DNA of 39,820 nt, taken from assembly GCA_018266475.1 (NCBI GenBank), contig JAFEAI010000125.1, forward strand, positions 1 through 39,820. The letters are read 5' to 3'. Under the pieces are notes generated by a model. It had not been told where the DNA came from. It saw nothing but the letters and a program-made list of their open reading frames with translations, and did no database searches. A program made the position numbers and the translations under genes. Source of the DNA: Bacteroidota bacterium. GTDB lineage: Bacteria; Bacteroidota; Bacteroidia; Flavobacteriales_F; PHOS-HE28. Of the stretch, positions 3,113-33,658 are shown one piece after another. Every line of letters starts with the position of its first letter. The stretch's first letter is position 1.

Positions 3113-3125
3113 GCCCCCGCAGCCT

Positions 3126-3347
3126 CGTGTTCCGCTCAGTGGAAGAACCGCGTGGCCTCGCTGGCCTCCCCGTCGGTGATGCGGATCAGATAGGTGCCGC
3201 TGGCCAAGGGGGCCGCAGGGATGCGCATCGGCCCCTCGTGTTCCGCTCAGTGGAAGAACCGCGTGGCCTCGCTGGCCTCCCCGTCGGTGATGCGGATCAG
3301 GTAGGTGCCGCTGGCCAAGTGGTCCGCAGGGATGCGCATCGGTCCCT
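3126..3347. repeat. 111-bp tandem duplication of the 3' end of the Calx-beta gene
   Basis: Bases 3126-3236 and 3237-3347 are two copies of a 111-bp unit with about four differences. The right copy contains the last codons and stop of the minus-strand gene ending at 3247. The left copy lies after that stop in the same frame and repeats the same ending with its own TGA (complement of 3136-3138). The period of 37 codons keeps frame. Two of the four differences change adjacent residues (Asp-His in the genic copy, Ala-Pro in the distal copy); the others are silent. Confidence 0.95.
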
Positions 3348-6300
3348 CGTGTTCCACGCGCCCGGAGAGCAGCACGCGCCCGGTGGCGTCCATCACGGCG
3401 TATGTGCTGCCCGCCGGGAAGTGGTGCTGCAGCCATGCGCCGTTGCCGTCGTACAGCACCGTAAGGCCGTGCGCTTCGCCCCGGAAGAACACGGGCACCG
3501 CCGCGCTCACCTTGGAGGTGCCGTCGCTATCGGTTTGCCGCAGGCGGTAGTAGCTCAGTCCGTCCAGCGGATGCGGATCTTCGCTGCGGTAGTGCAGCAG
3601 GGCCTGGCTGTTGCCCGCACCCGGCACTTGCAGCAGCGGGGAGAAGCGATCGGCATCGGCGCTGCGCTCCACGGTGAAGAAGGCATTGTCCTTTTCGCTG
3701 GCGGTGCTCCAGTACAGGTCCACCATGGTGTTTGCGGGCACGGCGGTGAAGGACAGCAGCTCCACCGGCAGGGGGTTGCTCACGCTGTGCGAGGCCAGGG
3801 TCCAGTAGTTGGCCGCCTGCAGGAAGGAGCTTTCCACCAAGGTGGTGGAAACGCTGCCGGCCGCGTTGGTGCCGGTGGTGTTGAAGCCGCCGCGGTCTAT
3901 CCACATCGTACCGTCCCAGTAGGCCGTCCGCATCTCCGGCAGATTGTCCACGCCGCAGCTTTCCGGGGCGCGCCAGGTCAGGGTCACGCGGGCGTTGGGC
4001 ACGCCGGCGCTGCGGTCGATCCGCCAGTATTCGCAGTCGCTCACATGGTTGATCGGCGGCCAATCATGCGCCCAGCCGATGGTGCCTTGGGCCGAGGCAT
4101 TGAAGTATTCGCCGGTGAACGCCGCGCTTGATCCGCCGGTGATGGCCGATAGCGAGGCGGGCCGGTAGCTGTTGGCCTTGCCCACCGGGAAGGTGAAGTC
4201 GGTGTCGCCCACCTTCTTCAGCGGCCCGTGGATGAAGCTGGCGTTGCTGGCGTTGATGGCGGTGGTGCCCGCAAGCAGCGTGGGCAGCGCCGCGGCCGTG
4301 GTGAACACGCGCCCCTGGGTGAGGTTCAGCTCATGGCGCACCGCAATGGGCGCGGTAAGGAAGACCGAGCCGCCGGACTTGGCCACCTTCAGGTCGTAGA
4401 AGTATTCCAGCGGGTTGCTGTTCTGGATGTACTGGTCGCCCGTGCCGTTCAGTACCACCTGGCCGAAGTTGTCGCCGAAGTGCAGTTCATTCTCCAGGTT
4501 GGTGAAGTTGCCGCCCAGCTGCAGCAGGCCGCTGGTGCCCGCGCCGTTCTGCAGGTTCAGCATGGCGCCGGCGCCGATGGTGAGGTTGCCCGCCACGGTC
4601 ACCTGGCTGCCGCTATAGTTTGCGGCCAGTGTGGTGCCGAAGGTGCCCAAGGCGTTGCCGGAAATTTCCAATGTGCCCGCGTTCAGCTTGGCATTGGTCA
4701 TCACCAGGTCGGTAAGGGCGGTGGCATTGGTGTTCTCCACCTTCATCAGCCCGGCCACGTTAAGCGTGCTGTTGGGCTGCACGTACAGGTAGCGCGGGGC
4801 GGTGGAGGTGAAGTGCTGCCACAGCGAGGCGCACACGGCCGTGCCGCCGGGCTGCAGGCCGGGGCTTATCCCCACGTTGCATGGGTTCAGCGCCGTGGCA
4901 TCCATCACCACGGGCGTCAGCACGGTGGGGATCCGGGCATCGTCCCAGTTGCGGCACTCGAACCAGTCGGTGTTGATGGCGCCCCGCCACAGCCCTGGCG
5001 TCATCGCACCGGGTGTGATCGGCAGCACCGGGGCCGTCATCCAGTTGTACCCGGTGGAGTTGTATGCGCCACAGCTCGTGTATGTGCTCCAGTTGGTGGT
5101 GGTCTCCAGGCGGATGATCCAATCGCGCTGGGTGGCGGTGGTGATGGGGCCGCTGTATTTGTTGAAGTCCGAGGCTAGCGTAGGGGCCATGCTGAAGCAT
5201 TCGATCCCCGGGGGCAGGTTGCTGCGTTGGTTGGGGTTGGTGGTGCAGGAAGCGGACCACGGGTAAGTGGGGTTGGTGCTGAAGGCGTACAGGATGGTGC
5301 CGTTGTAGGTGGCATTATGGTCGTTGGCCCCGCTGGTGTAGGTGCCACTGTTCCAGGTGCCGCCCTGCATGAAGAAGAGCTGGTCTCCGCCGTTGTTCAT
5401 GTTCACCGAGGTGGCGGGTGCGCCCGAAGGGTTGTTCAGCGAGGTGCAGCTCCATTGGTTGTCCGGGGCCACGGAGATTATATTGCCCGATCCGGAACTG
5501 TTCAGGATCTTGAAGGTGATCACTTGGCCGGCCGGGATGGTGGGCCCCGTGCGCTTCATGCGCACCGTGCCTTCGGAGTTTCCCCATTTCCCCGGGTTGC
5601 ACCGTTCATAGCCGTTATCGGTGAGGATGATCTCCGTGCCGTACAAGATGTCCTTGAAGCAGAAGAAGCTGATGCGGTCCTCGCCAGTATTGCCGCCGCA
5701 AGCACCTTCATTGGCGTTTACCCCTACTACGGCAAGGTCACCGGCAGCCAGGGTCGTTGGCGGCGAATCATCGTCAATGATCACCAACGTGGCGGTTTTC
5801 TTGGTGCCGATCAGCACACCCGGGGTGATGGCGCTGATGGTGAAGGTGACCGTGCGGGTGGGCTCAGGAACCGCATCGTTGATCAGGGTGGCGGTGAAGG
5901 AAATACTGGCCACGTTGGGGCCGAAGGTGATGGTGAAGCTCCCCGAGCTCCCGTTGGGGTTGGTGGTGTAGTCCGCCCCGTATACCACCCCCGGCCCGTT
6001 GGTGATCTGGATGGTGACCGTGCCGGAGGGATGTGTGGTAGGCAGGAAGTTGAGGATGAAGGTTTGCGCCCCCGCGCTCTCCAAGGCGCTGATGGTTTGT
6101 GTGGTGAAGCTGATCGTGGGGTTGGTGTCATCCTCCACGATGGTCAGCGTGAACTGGTCGGGGATGCTGATGTACATGCCCGACGAGGTGCCCGTGATCG
6201 CGAAAAGAAGGGTCTTGTTGGGCTCGGTGATGTTGTCGTCGATCAGGTTGACGGTGAAGCTGGCCATGGTGGCCCCGGCCGCTACGCTGAGGGTGATGGT

Positions 6301-7038
6301 GCCCGCCACTGCGGCCGGCGTGGTGGTGTAGTTGTTGCCCGCCCCGTACACCGCCGTGCTGCTGTTGTCAATGCTTACGGTGATGGTGCCTGCGGCAGCC
6401 GTGGCAGGGCTTATCGGCAGGTTCACCGTGTAGCTGCCGGCATTCTCCATCACGGAGGCGCTGGCAGATGCAAAGTTCACCATGGCCCCCCCCGCAAAGG
6501 CCGTCCATTCAATGTCGTCTATCTTTATCTGTGCGCCCGAGGTCCGCAGCTCCAAAAAGACATTGCCGCTTACGTTGATGGCCGCCGAATAGGATTGCAC
6601 CACGTCCGAGCTGGCATTTACGGTGATGTTTGCACCCCGCTGTATGCCGTTCACCCACACCTGGATGGTGCGCGGGCTTGTGCCGGTGTATGCACGCACA
6701 TAATTGAACTGCAGCACGCCCATGCCGCCCGTGTATGTTGGAGAGGTAACGGTGCCGTTCAAGTTCGTGCAGATCGCCTTGTTGGTCAAGGTTTGGTCCG
6801 TGCGCGCATTGGAGGCCGTCCATATCACGCCATCCGTGCCGGTCCAGGTGCGGCTTGTGTAAGTGGTTGGGGTACCTGTGGGAATATTCTCAAAATCTTC
6901 CTGGCCCTGGGCCCAGGCGCCAAGCACGGTAACCAACAGGAATAGAACAAGCGGAAGCCTGTGGGCCAGCTGCAGTCCGTGCCTATTGCTGGCGAAGGAT
7001 GTGCGCCGAAATGAATGGCCGTGTACCCGCCTTTTCAT
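3247..7038 (-). CDS. Large secreted Calx-beta protein with T9SS sorting domain
   Basis: A 1263-residue exported protein. A long basic N-region precedes a hydrophobic core (LPLVLFLLVTVLGAWAQ, about residues 28-44) and a likely cleavage after AWA-Q. Residues about 50-180 form a beta-sandwich-like segment ending DDIEWTAFAGG. Two Calx-beta domains follow (about 182-305 and 308-425), each closing with an acidic VEDD or IDDD turn. Next come a lamin-tail-like region with GACGGNTGEDRISFFCF, and a Trp-rich repeat region starting LWRGAINTDWFECRNWDD, common in Bacteroidota surface proteins. The C-terminus has LPVELLSFTAVP with an Ig/FN3-like domain and a type A T9SS sorting domain (HLASGTYLIRI). It is probably secreted and cell-surface attached; ligand unknown. 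Its terminal 37 codons are duplicated downstream. The upstream sequence has a near -7 box (GATCTTTG) just before the ATG. Confidence 0.9.
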   Translation of the reverse strand: MKRRVHGHSFRRTSFASNRHGLQLAHRLPLVLFLLVTVLGAWAQGQEDFENIPTGTPTTYTSRTWTGTDGVIWTASNARTDQTLTNKAICTNLNGTVTSPTYTGGMGVLQFNYVRAYTGTSPRTIQVWVNGIQRGANITVNASSDVVQSYSAAINVSGNVFLELRTSGAQIKIDDIEWTAFAGGAMVNFASASASVMENAGSYTVNLPISPATAAAGTITVSIDNSSTAVYGAGNNYTTTPAAVAGTITLSVAAGATMASFTVNLIDDNITEPNKTLLFAITGTSSGMYISIPDQFTLTIVEDDTNPTISFTTQTISALESAGAQTFILNFLPTTHPSGTVTIQITNGPGVVYGADYTTNPNGSSGSFTITFGPNVASISFTATLINDAVPEPTRTVTFTISAITPGVLIGTKKTATLVIIDDDSPPTTLAAGDLAVVGVNANEGACGGNTGEDRISFFCFKDILYGTEIILTDNGYERCNPGKWGNSEGTVRMKRTGPTIPAGQVITFKILNSSGSGNIISVAPDNQWSCTSLNNPSGAPATSVNMNNGGDQLFFMQGGTWNSGTYTSGANDHNATYNGTILYAFSTNPTYPWSASCTTNPNQRSNLPPGIECFSMAPTLASDFNKYSGPITTATQRDWIIRLETTTNWSTYTSCGAYNSTGYNWMTAPVLPITPGAMTPGLWRGAINTDWFECRNWDDARIPTVLTPVVMDATALNPCNVGISPGLQPGGTAVCASLWQHFTSTAPRYLYVQPNSTLNVAGLMKVENTNATALTDLVMTNAKLNAGTLEISGNALGTFGTTLAANYSGSQVTVAGNLTIGAGAMLNLQNGAGTSGLLQLGGNFTNLENELHFGDNFGQVVLNGTGDQYIQNSNPLEYFYDLKVAKSGGSVFLTAPIAVRHELNLTQGRVFTTAAALPTLLAGTTAINASNASFIHGPLKKVGDTDFTFPVGKANSYRPASLSAITGGSSAAFTGEYFNASAQGTIGWAHDWPPINHVSDCEYWRIDRSAGVPNARVTLTWRAPESCGVDNLPEMRTAYWDGTMWIDRGGFNTTGTNAAGSVSTTLVESSFLQAANYWTLASHSVSNPLPVELLSFTAVPANTMVDLYWSTASEKDNAFFTVERSADADRFSPLLQVPGAGNSQALLHYRSEDPHPLDGLSYYRLRQTDSDGTSKVSAAVPVFFRGEAHGLTVLYDGNGAWLQHHFPAGSTYAVMDATGRVLLSGRVEHEGPMRIPADHLASGTYLIRITDGEASEATRFFH

Positions 7039-7421: not shown

Positions 7422-8291
7422 ATGCGGCGGTCCACGTTCATCTTGGTCTTTTTGTCCATGGCAGGCGGTGCCGTGGCGCAGTTTCCCATGCCGGACAGCG
7501 GTGCCGTATGGGTGAACACACTGTACAATGTGCAACCTTCCTTCCCCACCGCCGTGTTTACGCTGATGCAGGCTGAGAGCTATTGCGTGAATGGTGCCGA
7601 CACCATCGTCAATGGTTTGCCCTATGTGCAATTGCACTATTGCCCGGGCACTTATAAGGGGGCCTTCCGCGAGGCGGCGGGCAGGGTGTGGTACGTGCCG
7701 GCCGGCGAAACACAGGAGGTGCTGCTGTATGACTTTTCGGCTTTGCCGGGCGATACCTTGCTGGTGTACCATGAAACAGCACTGTCCGGCCAGGGCCAGC
7801 TTTCCCCGGTGGTGGTGAACAGCGCTGGCCCGGACCCTCAGTTGGAAGGACGGCAGGTGGTGCAGCTCAGCGAGGGAGGCCGATGGATAGAAGGCATAGG
7901 TGCCGCGTGGGGCCTGTTCAGTGAGCCGTGGGTAAACGTGTCCAATTACCAGCTGCACCTGGAATGCATGAGCTACTTGGATTCAACCCGCTACCCTATG
8001 CCTGGCCCGGGCCGGTGCGATCCATTCATGGCCGTGGGCGAATACCGGTCCGGTGCAACCGACAGTAACACCGCCTGCCTCTTCCCCAACCCCACTACCG
8101 GCCGCCTGCAGGTCCGCTCCAATTCCCCAATTGAGCACTTGCGCCTTACTACAGTGGATGGCAGAGGCGTGCAGGTGGCCGCCACCCTTGGCGGCAATAT
8201 CGCAGTGCTGGACCTCGCACCCCTTGCTCCCGGGGTGTACCTTTTATACACCCGTGCAGCGGGCCTGGCGCAACGGGTGGTGCGGGAATAG
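7422..8291 (+). CDS. Secreted protein with T9SS sorting domain, function unknown
   Basis: A 289-residue protein with a signal peptide (MRRSTFILVFLSMAGGAVAQ, cleavage near residue 19). Residues about 20-205 form a unique region with six cysteines, including NYQLHLECMSYLDSTRY. From about residue 213 a T9SS type A sorting domain runs to the end (TACLFPNPTTGRLQVRS, then LAPGVYLLYT), with the typical PNPTTG start. This N-terminal architecture is common in Bacteroidota hypothetical proteins that follow the pattern 'signal, unknown domain, tail'. No enzyme motif was recognised. The gene is alone between divergent and same-strand neighbours and is flanked on both sides by a copy of a 27-base palindromic repeat. 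Confidence 0.85.
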   Translation: MRRSTFILVFLSMAGGAVAQFPMPDSGAVWVNTLYNVQPSFPTAVFTLMQAESYCVNGADTIVNGLPYVQLHYCPGTYKGAFREAAGRVWYVPAGETQEVLLYDFSALPGDTLLVYHETALSGQGQLSPVVVNSAGPDPQLEGRQVVQLSEGGRWIEGIGAAWGLFSEPWVNVSNYQLHLECMSYLDSTRYPMPGPGRCDPFMAVGEYRSGATDSNTACLFPNPTTGRLQVRSNSPIEHLRLTTVDGRGVQVAATLGGNIAVLDLAPLAPGVYLLYTRAAGLAQRVVRE

Positions 8292-8341: not shown

Positions 8342-8367
8342 CTTTTACAATCATCCGATCATGTATT

Positions 8368-8594
8368 GCTCCCTCAAGGTCTCCCAAAGGGGACCTTGTA
8401 GGAAGAGGATCTTGCTCCCTCAAGGTCTCCCGAAGGGGACCTTGCAGGAAGAGGATCTTGCTCCCTCAAGGTCTCCCAAAGGGGACCTTGCAGGAAGAGG
8501 ATCTTGCTCCCTCAAGGTCTCCCGAAGGGGACCTTGCAGGAAGAGGATCTTGCTCCCTCAAGACCTCCCGAAGGGGACCTTGCAGGAGGAAGAA
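8368..8594 (+). repeat. Five tandem 46-bp hairpin units
   Basis: Units start at 8368, 8414, 8460, 8506 and 8552 with a strict 46-base period; the last is slightly truncated. Each reads GCTCCCTCAAGGTCTCC, a CAAA or CGAA loop, GGGGACCTTGCAGGAAGAGGATCTT. The AAGGTCTCC and GGGGACCTT arms pair over nine bases with one wobble. Loop bases alternate CAAA, CGAA, CAAA, CGAA, CGAA. In unit 5 the left arm is changed to AAGACCTCC, which breaks two pairs. The period is not a multiple of three, so the array is not coding although one frame stays open through it. It ends about 36 bases before the M1 peptidase start. Confidence 0.95.
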
Positions 8595-8630
8595 TTAGTT
8601 TCGGGGCCGAACCCCGATCCCTGTCCATCC

Positions 8631-11072
8631 ATGCCCGTTCCGCATCGCATGCTTTTCGGCGGCGCCTTGCTGGCTGCCACAGGCGCCATGGCGCAGCCCT
8701 TCCAGGTGGGTTGCCACTACTTCCGCCAGCATCCCGCCGCCCAGCCCGTTCCCACCGCCGCCGAACGGGCCCTGATCGACGAGGTGATCGCGCGCAGCGA
8801 CACTTTCGACATCCTGCACTACGACATCGCCATCGACGTCACCGATTACAACGGGCAGCAGATACAGGCCGCCACCACCATCACCTTCACCCCGTTGATG
8901 GCCGACCAAACCTTTATCCGGTTCGAGCTTTGGGGCCTCACCGTGGATTCCGTTACCGCGCCGGAGGGCACGCTCCCGTTCAGCCAGGACACCATGCACC
9001 TGCGGGTGGATTTCCCCTCCCCGCCGGACATCGGCGCCCAGCGCGCCATCACCGTGCATTACCATGGCCATCCGCGCCGCGATCCGCAGTGGGGCGGCTT
9101 CTATTTCGAGAGCGGCTACATCTACAACCTCGGCATCGGCCTCTCCACCGTTCCGCCCAACTTCGGCAAGGTCTGGTACCCGTGCTTCGATTCCTTCGTG
9201 GAGCGCGCCACCTACACCTACCATGTGAAGAGCGCAGGCACCTTCAGGGCGCACTGCCAGGGCGATTTCCTGGGCGAAGTGCAGCTGGGCGGTGATACGG
9301 TGATCCGTTCCTTCAACTTCGGCCAGCCCATACCCACCCACCTTTCGGCCATTGCCGTGGCGGATTACCGGGACAGCAATTATGTCCACACCGGGGCCTA
9401 TGGGGACGTTCCCGTGCGCCTTACGGCCAAGCCGGCCAAGCTCTCCGCCATGGCAGCTAAAATGGCCGATGTGGGCGCGGCCATCGATGCCTGCCAGTTC
9501 TGGTATGGCCCCTATGGCTGGCAGCGCGTAGGCTATGTGCTTACCACCGATGGCGCCCTGGAGATTCCCACCAACATCGCCTTCCCTGATTTCATGACCG
9601 CGCAGCCGCAGGCCGACAACCGCGGGCTGCTGAGCCATGAGCTGGGCCACCATTGGTGGGGCGACATGGTGACGCCCCGCACCCAGCAGGACATGTGGCT
9701 GAAGGAAGGGCCCGCAGAATACAGCAAGCACCTGGTGGAGGAATGGATCGGCGGGCAGCCGGCCTTTGTGAACGCCGTGAAGGACAACCAGCTGTACGTG
9801 CTCAAGAACGCCGACGCGCAGGACGGCGGCTTCCAGCCCCTGTCGCCCATGCCCGATCCATACATCTACGGCCTCACCACCTACTACAAGGGGGCTTCGG
9901 TGGTGCATAACCTGCGCGGCTATTTGGGCGATACGCTCTTCCGGCAGGGCATGCACCAGGTGCAGCAGCTGCACGCCTACACCACCCTGGATGCTGCCGG
10001 CTTCCGCGATGCGCTGGAATCCGCCACCGGGTACGACCTGCACCCCTTCTTCACGGACCAGGTGTTTGCGCCTGGCTTTTCGGTGTTCGTGGTGCAGGCC
10101 ATGCAGGCACAGCAAACGGGCGGCCAGTGGCAGGCGGACTTGTCCATTCGCCAGAAATTGCGCGGGGCCTCGGTGTTCCACCACGCGGTGCCGTTGGACA
10201 TCACGCTCATCGGGGCGCAGGGGCAGCGCCAGGAATACCTGCGCACGGCAGGCGGCGAATTCACCGACCTCTCCTTGTCCTGCGGGTTTCAACCGGTGAT
10301 GGCCGTGCTCAACGGACACAACCGCCTGAACCAGGCGCGCATGGATTTCGAGCGCACCCTGGTGCCCGGCGTGGCCGTGCCGCAAACCCAGCCCCGCGTG
10401 GATTTCCGCCTGTACGTGGACCAATTGCCGGACACGGCGCTGATCCGCTTTGAGCACATCTGGGCGGCGCCGGAGGCGGACCTGGCGGCGGGGATCAGCG
10501 AGATCAGCACCACCCACTATTGGACCGTGGACGGCCTGTGGCCCGCTGGCACCCAGTTGCGCGGGCGCCTGGCGTATGCCGCGCTCAGCACCTCCTCGCT
10601 GGACCACGCCATGCTCGGCACCGACGAATCCGGGGTGATGCTGCTCTATCGCCCCGATCCCTCCATGCCGTGGGAGGTGTGCGCCGACCAAAGCGTGCAT
10701 GCAGGGGTGCTCACCGACGGGTCGGGATACATCGATATAAGCGTGCTGCGCAAGGGGCAATATGCCTTTGGCAAAGGCACCTTTGTGGGCGTGGCGGGGC
10801 CGGAGGCACCGGTGGAGGCGCTGCTGGCCTACCCGGTGCCGGCAAGCGGCCACCTCAGCGTGGAAGTGGGGAAGGCCATGCAGGGCCAATTGGTGCAGGC
10901 CACCATCTTCAATGCCAATGGCGGGGCAGAGCTGCAGGCCTATTGCACGGCGGCGCAGGGGCAACCCGTGCGGCTGGACGTGTCGCGCCTGGCGGCGGGC
11001 ACCTATGTGCTGCAGGTGCGGGCCTTGTCCGGCACCGGCCTTGGCCGTGCCATGTTCGTGGTGGCCCGTTAG
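8631..11072 (+). CDS. Secreted M1 family zinc metallopeptidase with T9SS sorting domain
   Basis: An 813-residue exported aminopeptidase-like protein. A signal peptide (MLFGGALLAATGAMAQ) follows a short MPVPHR lead. The ATG at 8631 or at 8649 both work, and upstream sequence is the 46-bp repeat array. An N-terminal beta domain (about 45-250) is followed by the catalytic domain with HELGHHWWGD (His336, Glu337, His340) and the third zinc ligand Glu359 in WLKEGPAEY, exactly the M1 HExxH-x18-E spacing. The likely transition-state tyrosine is Tyr418 or Tyr419. The substrate-anchoring GxMEN motif appears as GALEI at 308-312, a marked variant. After about residue 560 come beta domains and a T9SS tail (YPVPASGHLSVEV, LAAGTYVLQV). 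It probably digests peptides outside the cell or at the surface. Confidence 0.93.
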   Translation: MPVPHRMLFGGALLAATGAMAQPFQVGCHYFRQHPAAQPVPTAAERALIDEVIARSDTFDILHYDIAIDVTDYNGQQIQAATTITFTPLMADQTFIRFELWGLTVDSVTAPEGTLPFSQDTMHLRVDFPSPPDIGAQRAITVHYHGHPRRDPQWGGFYFESGYIYNLGIGLSTVPPNFGKVWYPCFDSFVERATYTYHVKSAGTFRAHCQGDFLGEVQLGGDTVIRSFNFGQPIPTHLSAIAVADYRDSNYVHTGAYGDVPVRLTAKPAKLSAMAAKMADVGAAIDACQFWYGPYGWQRVGYVLTTDGALEIPTNIAFPDFMTAQPQADNRGLLSHELGHHWWGDMVTPRTQQDMWLKEGPAEYSKHLVEEWIGGQPAFVNAVKDNQLYVLKNADAQDGGFQPLSPMPDPYIYGLTTYYKGASVVHNLRGYLGDTLFRQGMHQVQQLHAYTTLDAAGFRDALESATGYDLHPFFTDQVFAPGFSVFVVQAMQAQQTGGQWQADLSIRQKLRGASVFHHAVPLDITLIGAQGQRQEYLRTAGGEFTDLSLSCGFQPVMAVLNGHNRLNQARMDFERTLVPGVAVPQTQPRVDFRLYVDQLPDTALIRFEHIWAAPEADLAAGISEISTTHYWTVDGLWPAGTQLRGRLAYAALSTSSLDHAMLGTDESGVMLLYRPDPSMPWEVCADQSVHAGVLTDGSGYIDISVLRKGQYAFGKGTFVGVAGPEAPVEALLAYPVPASGHLSVEVGKAMQGQLVQATIFNANGGAELQAYCTAAQGQPVRLDVSRLAAGTYVLQVRALSGTGLGRAMFVVAR

Positions 11073-26226: not shown

Positions 26227-26451
26227 CAGGGCTATCGCCTCTTGACACTGCGCCTGGCGGCGCATGCCCATTACTTTGACGAGCCACGGATCCACACGGA
26301 AGGACACAGATCGCGGATCTCTCCGTGTATCGGGCGCAAAGTCGTGGCCCACTTCCCACATCGCGCACTTATCCCTGTTTATCTGCGTCCATCCGTGGTT
26401 GGAAACTCGGAAAAGCCGCGATAGCAGGGCGCGCAAGAGGCGATAGCCCTG
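26227..26451. mobile_element. 225-bp element with perfect 18-bp inverted ends, MITE-like
   Basis: CAGGGCTATCGCCTCTTG at 26227-26244 is repeated exactly as its reverse complement at 26434-26451. Inside, after a GCGCC-TGGC-GGCGC palindrome at 26250-26265, lies GAGCCACGGATCCACACGG, and near the other end GCGTCCATCCGTGGTT: a second, inner inverted pair. The inner part is related to the dispersed repeat at 1-116 and 31669-31896. No open frame of substance and no clear target-site duplication was found. It sits between divergent prfC and the sugar dehydrogenase gene. The mobile-element reading is inference from the ends alone. Confidence 0.6.
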
Positions 26452-31668: not shown

Positions 31669-31896
31669 CCATGCGCCTGGCGGCGCATTCATGTACTGAC
31701 TTGAACCACGGATAACACGGATAGGGAAGCGTGTTTTCGAGCGGTTTTCGGGCGGGCCATCGGTGCCATGCGCCTGGCGGCGCGCACCTGCCGACTTGAA
31801 CCACGGGTCCACGCGGATGGACACGGATAGGGAAGGTTGTCTTGCTTGGTAGGTGGGTCCGTGATCCGTGTTCATCGGTGTCCATCCGTGGTTTGA
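31669..31896 (+). repeat. Dispersed composite repeat, copies 3a/3b with inverted partner
   Basis: ATGCGCC-TGGC-GGCGCAT begins the unit at 31671, followed by ACTTGAACCACGGATAACACGG. A second unit starts at about 31769 with the same GCGCCTGGCGGCGC palindrome and ACTTGAACCACGGGTCCACG. The stretch ends with GTCCATCCGTGGTTTGAA, the inverse of the second. The order of blocks in the left unit matches the complement of 1-116. Confidence 0.8.
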
Positions 31897-31976
31897 ATTC
31901 TATTGGAAGACGCGGCCGCAGGGCGCGCTGGACCCGATGGCCCTTGGGACCCGCGCCGGGTTGCCCCCGGGGCGAG

Positions 31977-33441: not shown

Positions 33442-33658
33442 AAGTGCGGAGCTCGTGGTTCGTAGTTCGTGGGGGGAATACGCACGGAAGGAGCATCAAC
33501 CATGTCCTACGCCCTGCCAATAGGGCAAAGTGCGTAGTTCGTGGTTCGTGGGGGGGATGTGTCCAGAAGGACCATCAACCATGCCCTACGAACTACACGC
33601 TACGCCCTGCGCCCTGCGCCCTGCGAACTAATCTCTACGCCCTACGCCCCTCGAACGC
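33442..33658. repeat. Intergenic repeat cluster between recF-dciA and ndk
   Basis: Two diverged direct copies of about 65-70 bases (33442-33511 and 33528-33590) both contain GTGCG, TAGTTCGTGG, a G6-7 run, GGAAGG or AGAAGG, CATCAACCATG and CCTACG. After them come inverted relatives of the start (CTACGAACTACACGCTACG) and a GCCCTGC unit repeated three times near 33604-33624. It is not coding. No gene was found here. Confidence 0.75.

Follow-up and report, generated by a model that had tools for sequence, protein, structure and literature searches.

In a window of 39,820 nucleotides (the whole stretch of DNA analysed here, part of contig C28 in a genome of 3.57 Mb and 283 contigs), five hairpins stand in a row just upstream of the gene for a secreted M1 peptidase. 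The locus raises the question whether these hairpins serve the peptidase gene, as the first-pass annotation had suggested, or belong to a repeat of the genome at large.

The five-unit array and the M1 peptidase promoter

The array (8366-8590) is composed of five 46-bp hairpin units arranged head-to-tail, with a spacing of exactly 46 bases. Tandem Repeats Finder, run on the window, reports 8366-8587 with a period of 46, 4.8 copies, 96% matches, no indels and a score of 409; together with the folds, this bears out the near-identical, evenly spaced units described earlier. The units and their neighbouring features are located as follows.

7422-8291, plus strand: upstream gene whose product has a type IX sorting tail (NCBIfam Por_Secre_tail at 25.2 bits against a cutoff of 23); neighbour, outside the element
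8363-8406, plus strand: REP unit 1 (type A), hairpin 8375-8398, foot TCCC 8370-8373; covariance model R1 60.4 bits, fold
8409-8452, plus strand: REP unit 2 (type A), hairpin 8421-8444; R1 65.1 bits, fold
8455-8498, plus strand: REP unit 3 (type A), hairpin 8467-8490; R1 62.3 bits, fold
8501-8544, plus strand: REP unit 4 (type A), hairpin 8513-8536; R1 65.1 bits, fold
8547-8590, plus strand: REP unit 5, degenerate stem, hairpin region 8559-8582; R1 58.4 bits, weaker fold
8596-8603, plus strand: TAGTTTCG, putative Bacteroidota -7 promoter box of the M1 peptidase, conserved in most M1 orthologues
8631-11072, plus strand: secreted M1 peptidase with a type IX sorting tail (Pfam: Peptidase_M1 9e-21, Por_Secre_tail 3.5e-7); neighbour, outside the element

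The 231-base array stretch folds far more stably than shuffled sequences (z = -7.2). Comparison of the copies gives a stem of 7 bp, one bulged T and a further 3 bp, closed by a 3-base loop; the hairpin of the earlier description is thereby retained, its plain stem of nine pairs being replaced by a bulged stem of ten. Units 1-4, folded as DNA, reach -9.9 kcal/mol each (z -2.7 to -3.4). In unit 5, CAAGACC replaces CAAGGTC, which breaks two pairs and leaves a degenerate stem of -5.9 kcal/mol (z -0.7). The alternation of CAAA and CGAA loops noted before holds for units 1-4, unit 5 carrying CGAA, and the growth by copying of dimers suggested with it is possible. The spacers between the units are identical and not unique, in agreement with the statement that the array is not a CRISPR. 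A scan of the window with R1 finds no REP copy besides the five units, and a scan of the array finds no sigma-70 promoter and no intrinsic terminator. Searches against Rfam return only sub-threshold matches, to plant and animal microRNA models that fall on the palindromes and are attributed to chance.

The array does lie close upstream of the peptidase gene, with 40 bases from 8590 to the ATG at 8631 in place of the roughly 36 given at first. A long open reading frame (8361-11072) takes in the array and continues in the frame of the peptidase; it was set aside because orthologues share the start at 8631, which is signal-peptide-like. The Bacteroidota -7 consensus is TAnnTTTG. Most M1 orthologues carry TAG(C/T)TTCG at 20-35 nt before the start, and boxes of the form TAnnTTYG precede 136 called starts 21 times in sense versus 3 times in antisense. 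The putative -7 box is located between the array and the start, which places the array upstream of the core promoter and outside the 5' leader, contrary to the proposal that it lies in the leader or between promoter and start. The last unit falls at about the -33 region of this putative promoter, and an effect of the array on the promoter is therefore conceivable. M1 orthologues are present in all 45 genomes of the genus, the nearest being 76% identical, and the sequences upstream of M1 do not align. No array was found by the covariance model upstream of the 29 other M1 loci of the genus, a few of which have short upstream flanks.

Other repeats are also found in the window. A 111-bp tandem duplication (3123-3355, about 2.1 copies, 96%) covers the 3' end of a Calx-beta protein gene (3247-7038, minus strand) and reads like a type IX sorting tail. 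The dispersed repeat ATCCGCGTCCATCCGTGTTTATCCGCGGTTCAAA occurs at 49-82, 26371-26404 and 31864-31897 (68-85% alike); larger inverted repeats lie close by, at 1-114 and 31669-31782. In addition, 33443-33649 contains GTGGTTCGTAGTTCGTGG- and GCCCTACGAACTAAACGCTAC-type repeats with periods of about 7 and 35, plus a duplicate spaced by 79 bp and 78% alike.

A dispersed, mainly extragenic hairpin family

A search of the genome with the array as query returns 41 matches (E <= 1). These fall into two related hairpin types, A (YTCCCTCAAGGTCTCCCGAAGGGGACCTTG-CAGG) and B (YCCATCAAGGTCTCGCGCAGCGGACCTTG-ACGC), which are frequently adjacent and inverted. Units of the family are dispersed, some standing alone and others forming inverted pairs or clusters. 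The covariance model was built from 28 aligned distinct units; the bulged-T stem fits this alignment with 97.9% of cells paired, including one compensatory pair that switches between CG, GC and AU. A plain 10-bp stem without the bulge fits the alignment worse and was rejected. With E <= 0.1 as threshold, the model detects about 98 matches genome-wide. Among the 88 that could be placed, 74 lie outside predicted genes, versus 18% of random positions; genes were called with a simple script based on codon usage, which does not detect the RAYT gene, and the 14 copies within genes may include start errors. Some copies sit within long predicted open frames, at 2960-3177 of L202 (contig C19) and 3014-3375 of L214 (contig C200), possibly REPs read as protein-coding repeats or errors of gene calling.

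Adjacent copies are inverted in 29 cases, mostly 47/48 or 36 nt apart, and in the same orientation in 24. Further tandem series are present in the genome, their periods differing from that of the array (39/40 bp x10, 42 x3, 43 x4.6, 69 x3, 69 x5.2 and 100 x3). Seventeen REP clusters have clear neighbours, 5 of them convergent, 8 co-directional and 4 divergent; this is near the 1:2:1 expected without preference, so the clusters show no preference for gene starts. The first-pass annotation, which tied the array to the peptidase gene, had named a common repeat without bias towards gene starts as the finding that would speak against it. The genome-wide search and the orientation of neighbours largely reveal such a repeat, and the tie to the peptidase gene is not upheld, the family being dispersed and the array absent at the other M1 loci.

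The family has the organisation of REPs and BIMEs. Its 24-nt bulged hairpin, backed by covariation, is a short palindrome within the 20-40 bp of REPs; its copies are many, dispersed and mainly extragenic; and single copies, clusters and inverted neighbours with preferred spacings correspond to the BIME/REPIN pattern. The foot is TCC(C/A) instead of GTAG or GTGG, so the family is not a canonical GTAG REP. At three further loci (L193, L194 and L006, on contigs C192, C172 and C5), REP clusters are interleaved with CGTCATTGCGAGGCCGCTTTGGGCCGAAGCAATCTTTGATT and ACAGGATGAACAGGATGGG satellites, forming mosaic extragenic regions, several of them at contig ends.

Among 58 relatives scanned, REP matches are confined to the same genus and are patchy, with many copies in about nine genomes and none in most. 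The four genomes with the closest RAYT (at least 60% identity) are the four richest in REPs of the 45 genus genomes, with 90, 70, 67 and 18 copies. Five others (G029, G032, G002, G020 and G023) hold 7-16 copies each without the closest RAYT. The coincidence of the highest REP counts with the closest RAYT is supportive and not proof: the REP-rich genomes are close relatives (M1 identity 70-76%), and the correlation is hence not independent of descent.

RAYT genes flanked by hairpins of the family

Two relatives carry a Y1 transposase-like gene within a REP cluster (G004, contig C1 at 112.6k; G006, contig C67 at 0.4k). The G004 protein leads to an orthologue in the genome of the window, a 213-aa open frame on contig C237 (3810-4370) that is 60% identical and located inside clusters of the REP family. 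Hairpins of the family lie 42 nt upstream of this gene on the plus strand and at its downstream end on the minus strand, the latter forming a 39/40-bp array of about 10 units. The C237 gene, like its relatives in general, is thus flanked by two inverted hairpins. RAYT genes flanked by two inverted REPs, with REP abundance following the RAYT, are published hallmarks of such systems (PMC2817692). Other Y1 transposases of the genome (on C108, C19, C193, C79 and C30), which were the first candidates, have no family hairpins in the flanks examined and were set aside.

Model-like hairpins are found nearby at all but one of the 17 loci of the RAYT clade scanned (one duplicate pair apart), and the covariance model gives no credible hairpin match at 12 distant Y1 loci. 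RAYTs of the genus with at least 40% identity have similar hairpins, generally in sense upstream and antisense downstream. The G004 RAYT is exceptional in that its nearest upstream hairpin, within a BIME, has the opposite sense.

In these proteins, nearly all from Bacteroidota, the HUH histidines are kept and the catalytic Tyr is invariant (motifs NH[VLA]H and Y[IM]H.N[PA]). NCBIfam NF047646 (REP-associated tyrosine transposase) matches 16/16 members of the clade; the C237 protein matches it at 1.6e-12 and 47.6 bits, below the curated cutoff of 80 bits. Its sequence match to 4er8 (E. coli TnpA-REP with a REP hairpin) is weak. Its predicted structure (pLDDT 89) has 4er8 as best fold match (E 3e-7), followed by the ISDra2 and IS200 transposases. 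By its predicted Y1/HUH fold and its match to the RAYT profile, the C237 gene is identified as a RAYT (REP-associated tyrosine transposase), and its sequence appears to resemble Bacteroidetes RAYT subclass 2.6 / group 5. The hairpins beside it are of the CAGGG/CCCTG variant, whereas the window units are CAAGG/CCTTG, a variant that adjoins the RAYTs of G004 and G006; the RAYT of the window variant could accordingly be another or a lost one.

Several known systems are similar in part. With subclass 2.6 / group 5 the system shares the phylum, the protein length, an NH[LIV]H-type HUH motif, the Y-I-H-x-N-P motif, and a gene flanked by hairpins with copies elsewhere in the genome. The WQ motif of that subclass is replaced here by WR or F. 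The repeats of that subclass have been called 'atypical secondary structures', with no consensus given in the text (Quentin et al. 2018, PMC6006769), while the hairpins here have a defined bulged-T core and TCC(C) foot. Like the E. coli REP/BIME system with TnpA-REP (4er8), the family combines extragenic irregular-stem hairpins, inverted pairs, a flanked RAYT gene and a matching predicted protein fold; in E. coli the foot is GTAG and the bulge a mismatch of two bases (PMC8266576), in contrast to the TCC(C) foot and single bulged T (or A) found here. Head-to-tail, evenly spaced arrays of a single REP type are known from Pseudomonas fluorescens SBW25 (Bertels and Rainey 2011, PMC3116915), where the REP sequence is another, of a GTAG-type family. 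At the ends of IS200/IS605 elements (IS608, ISDra2), too, Y1 transposases recognise single-strand hairpins in which a base is left unpaired, and IS608 contacts an unpaired T (PMC8266576). Unlike these elements, no mobile IS unit is present here, and the hairpins are dispersed without a gene.

Origin of the array and a signature of Bacteroidota REPs

The array very probably represents five type A REPs, head-to-tail, of a dispersed family that is recognised as a folded single strand by a RAYT / TnpA-REP (an HUH-type single-strand tyrosine transposase) encoded elsewhere in the genome. The direct observations behind this assignment are the hairpin form, the family size, the extragenic position, the inverted-pair organisation and the RAYT genes flanked by hairpins. 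Most likely, the RAYT encoded in the same genome spreads the family. It would bind the hairpin with its TCCC foot and bulged T, nick near the hairpin and scatter REPs into extragenic DNA, the foot presumably guiding the cut of the folded single strand, by analogy with work in E. coli (PMC8266576). One REP may have landed or arisen beside the M1 promoter and, together with its spacer, would then have been multiplied by tandem duplication, through replication slippage or with help of the RAYT, at first as a monomer and later perhaps as a 92-bp dimer. Given tandem growth elsewhere in the genome and the arrays of P. fluorescens, the array is most simply explained by local duplication of a unit together with its spacer. 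The array is thus of a known kind, REP with RAYT, and a new member of it: one more locally amplified REP, ordinary of its kind.

Other explanations account for parts of these data. That the hairpin copy number sets expression of the M1 peptidase, from the 5' leader or at the promoter, is suggested by strong hairpins that end 6 bases short of the -7 box and 40 short of the start codon, but it is unlikely given that the array is missing at 29 other M1 loci of the genus, the family is dispersed without preference for gene starts, and the -7 box downstream keeps the array out of the leader. A role at the 3' end of the upstream gene, as a terminator or as RNA-stabilising hairpins like some enterobacterial REPs, deserves more consideration while still being the less probable account: the array begins about 71 nt after the stop codon of 7422-8291, read-through RNA would form the hairpins, and REPs elsewhere do stabilise RNA or terminate transcription (PMC6006769), yet no T-run follows the array, the terminator scan of the array is empty, and such a role could be a side effect of REPs that leaves the dispersed family unexplained.

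Neutral tandem duplication of a chance palindrome, with no enzyme involved, would agree with the slippage-like look of copies with identical spacers; it is very improbable, being contradicted by the dispersed copies of the hairpin and by its inverted copies on either side of RAYT genes in different species. A CRISPR or integron-like array, which the regular spacing of palindromic units might recall, has a negligible chance of being correct, because the spacers are identical and the units are also dispersed, single and in inverted pairs. With the array taken as locally amplified REPs, a peptidase-specific regulatory role is not needed, and effects on neighbouring genes are possible as by-products. 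Such arrays near promoters should not be read as gene-specific regulators.

Scanning the RAYT alignment against 84,980 genomes yielded 80 loci, nearly all from Bacteroidota, with one record titled Ignavibacteria. Hairpins were counted towards the signature if they had the core GTC-T...GAC and 4 bp or more of outer stem. At Bacteroidota-type RAYT loci it lies in sense upstream in 50/78 and in antisense downstream in 52/78, an enrichment owed in part to the common descent of these loci; no other 3-mer core exceeds 14. The signature occurs inside genes in 0/80 and far upstream in 4/72, and 33 control Y1/IS200 loci give one match per side. Three Watson-Crick pairs directly follow the bulged T in 80 of 106 distinct hairpins, compared with 14.6% when arms are mixed between hairpins, and the unbulged register fits only 1/106, which gives the bulge independent support. 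Ahead of the outer stem lies the foot T-C-C(-C); across the family, positions -10 to -8 relative to the core have the consensus T-C-C.

These features make it fairly probable that Bacteroidota RAYTs have a REP code of their own, made up of a stem that ends in GTC/GAC, an obligatory single bulge in its 5' arm (T, sometimes A), an inner hairpin of short length, and the foot TCC(C), which would act as guide in place of GTAG; the window array would be its five-fold tandem display. Core, bulge and foot are kept from one RAYT to the next and the outer stem changes, so that specificity would reside in this outer part. The literature consulted offers only 'atypical secondary structures' for the REPs of this RAYT group, to which the signature adds a defined core and foot. 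With it, REPs can be sought across the genomes of the phylum, and the recognition rule becomes open to direct tests in vitro. What deserves to be kept is this Bacteroidota-wide signature, to which the array is the entry point. At two loci (L157 on G006 contig C4 and L227 on G023 contig C33), the RAYTs are accompanied by hairpins with A in place of T as the bulge and a long or multi-part inner hairpin, forming a subgroup of the signature.
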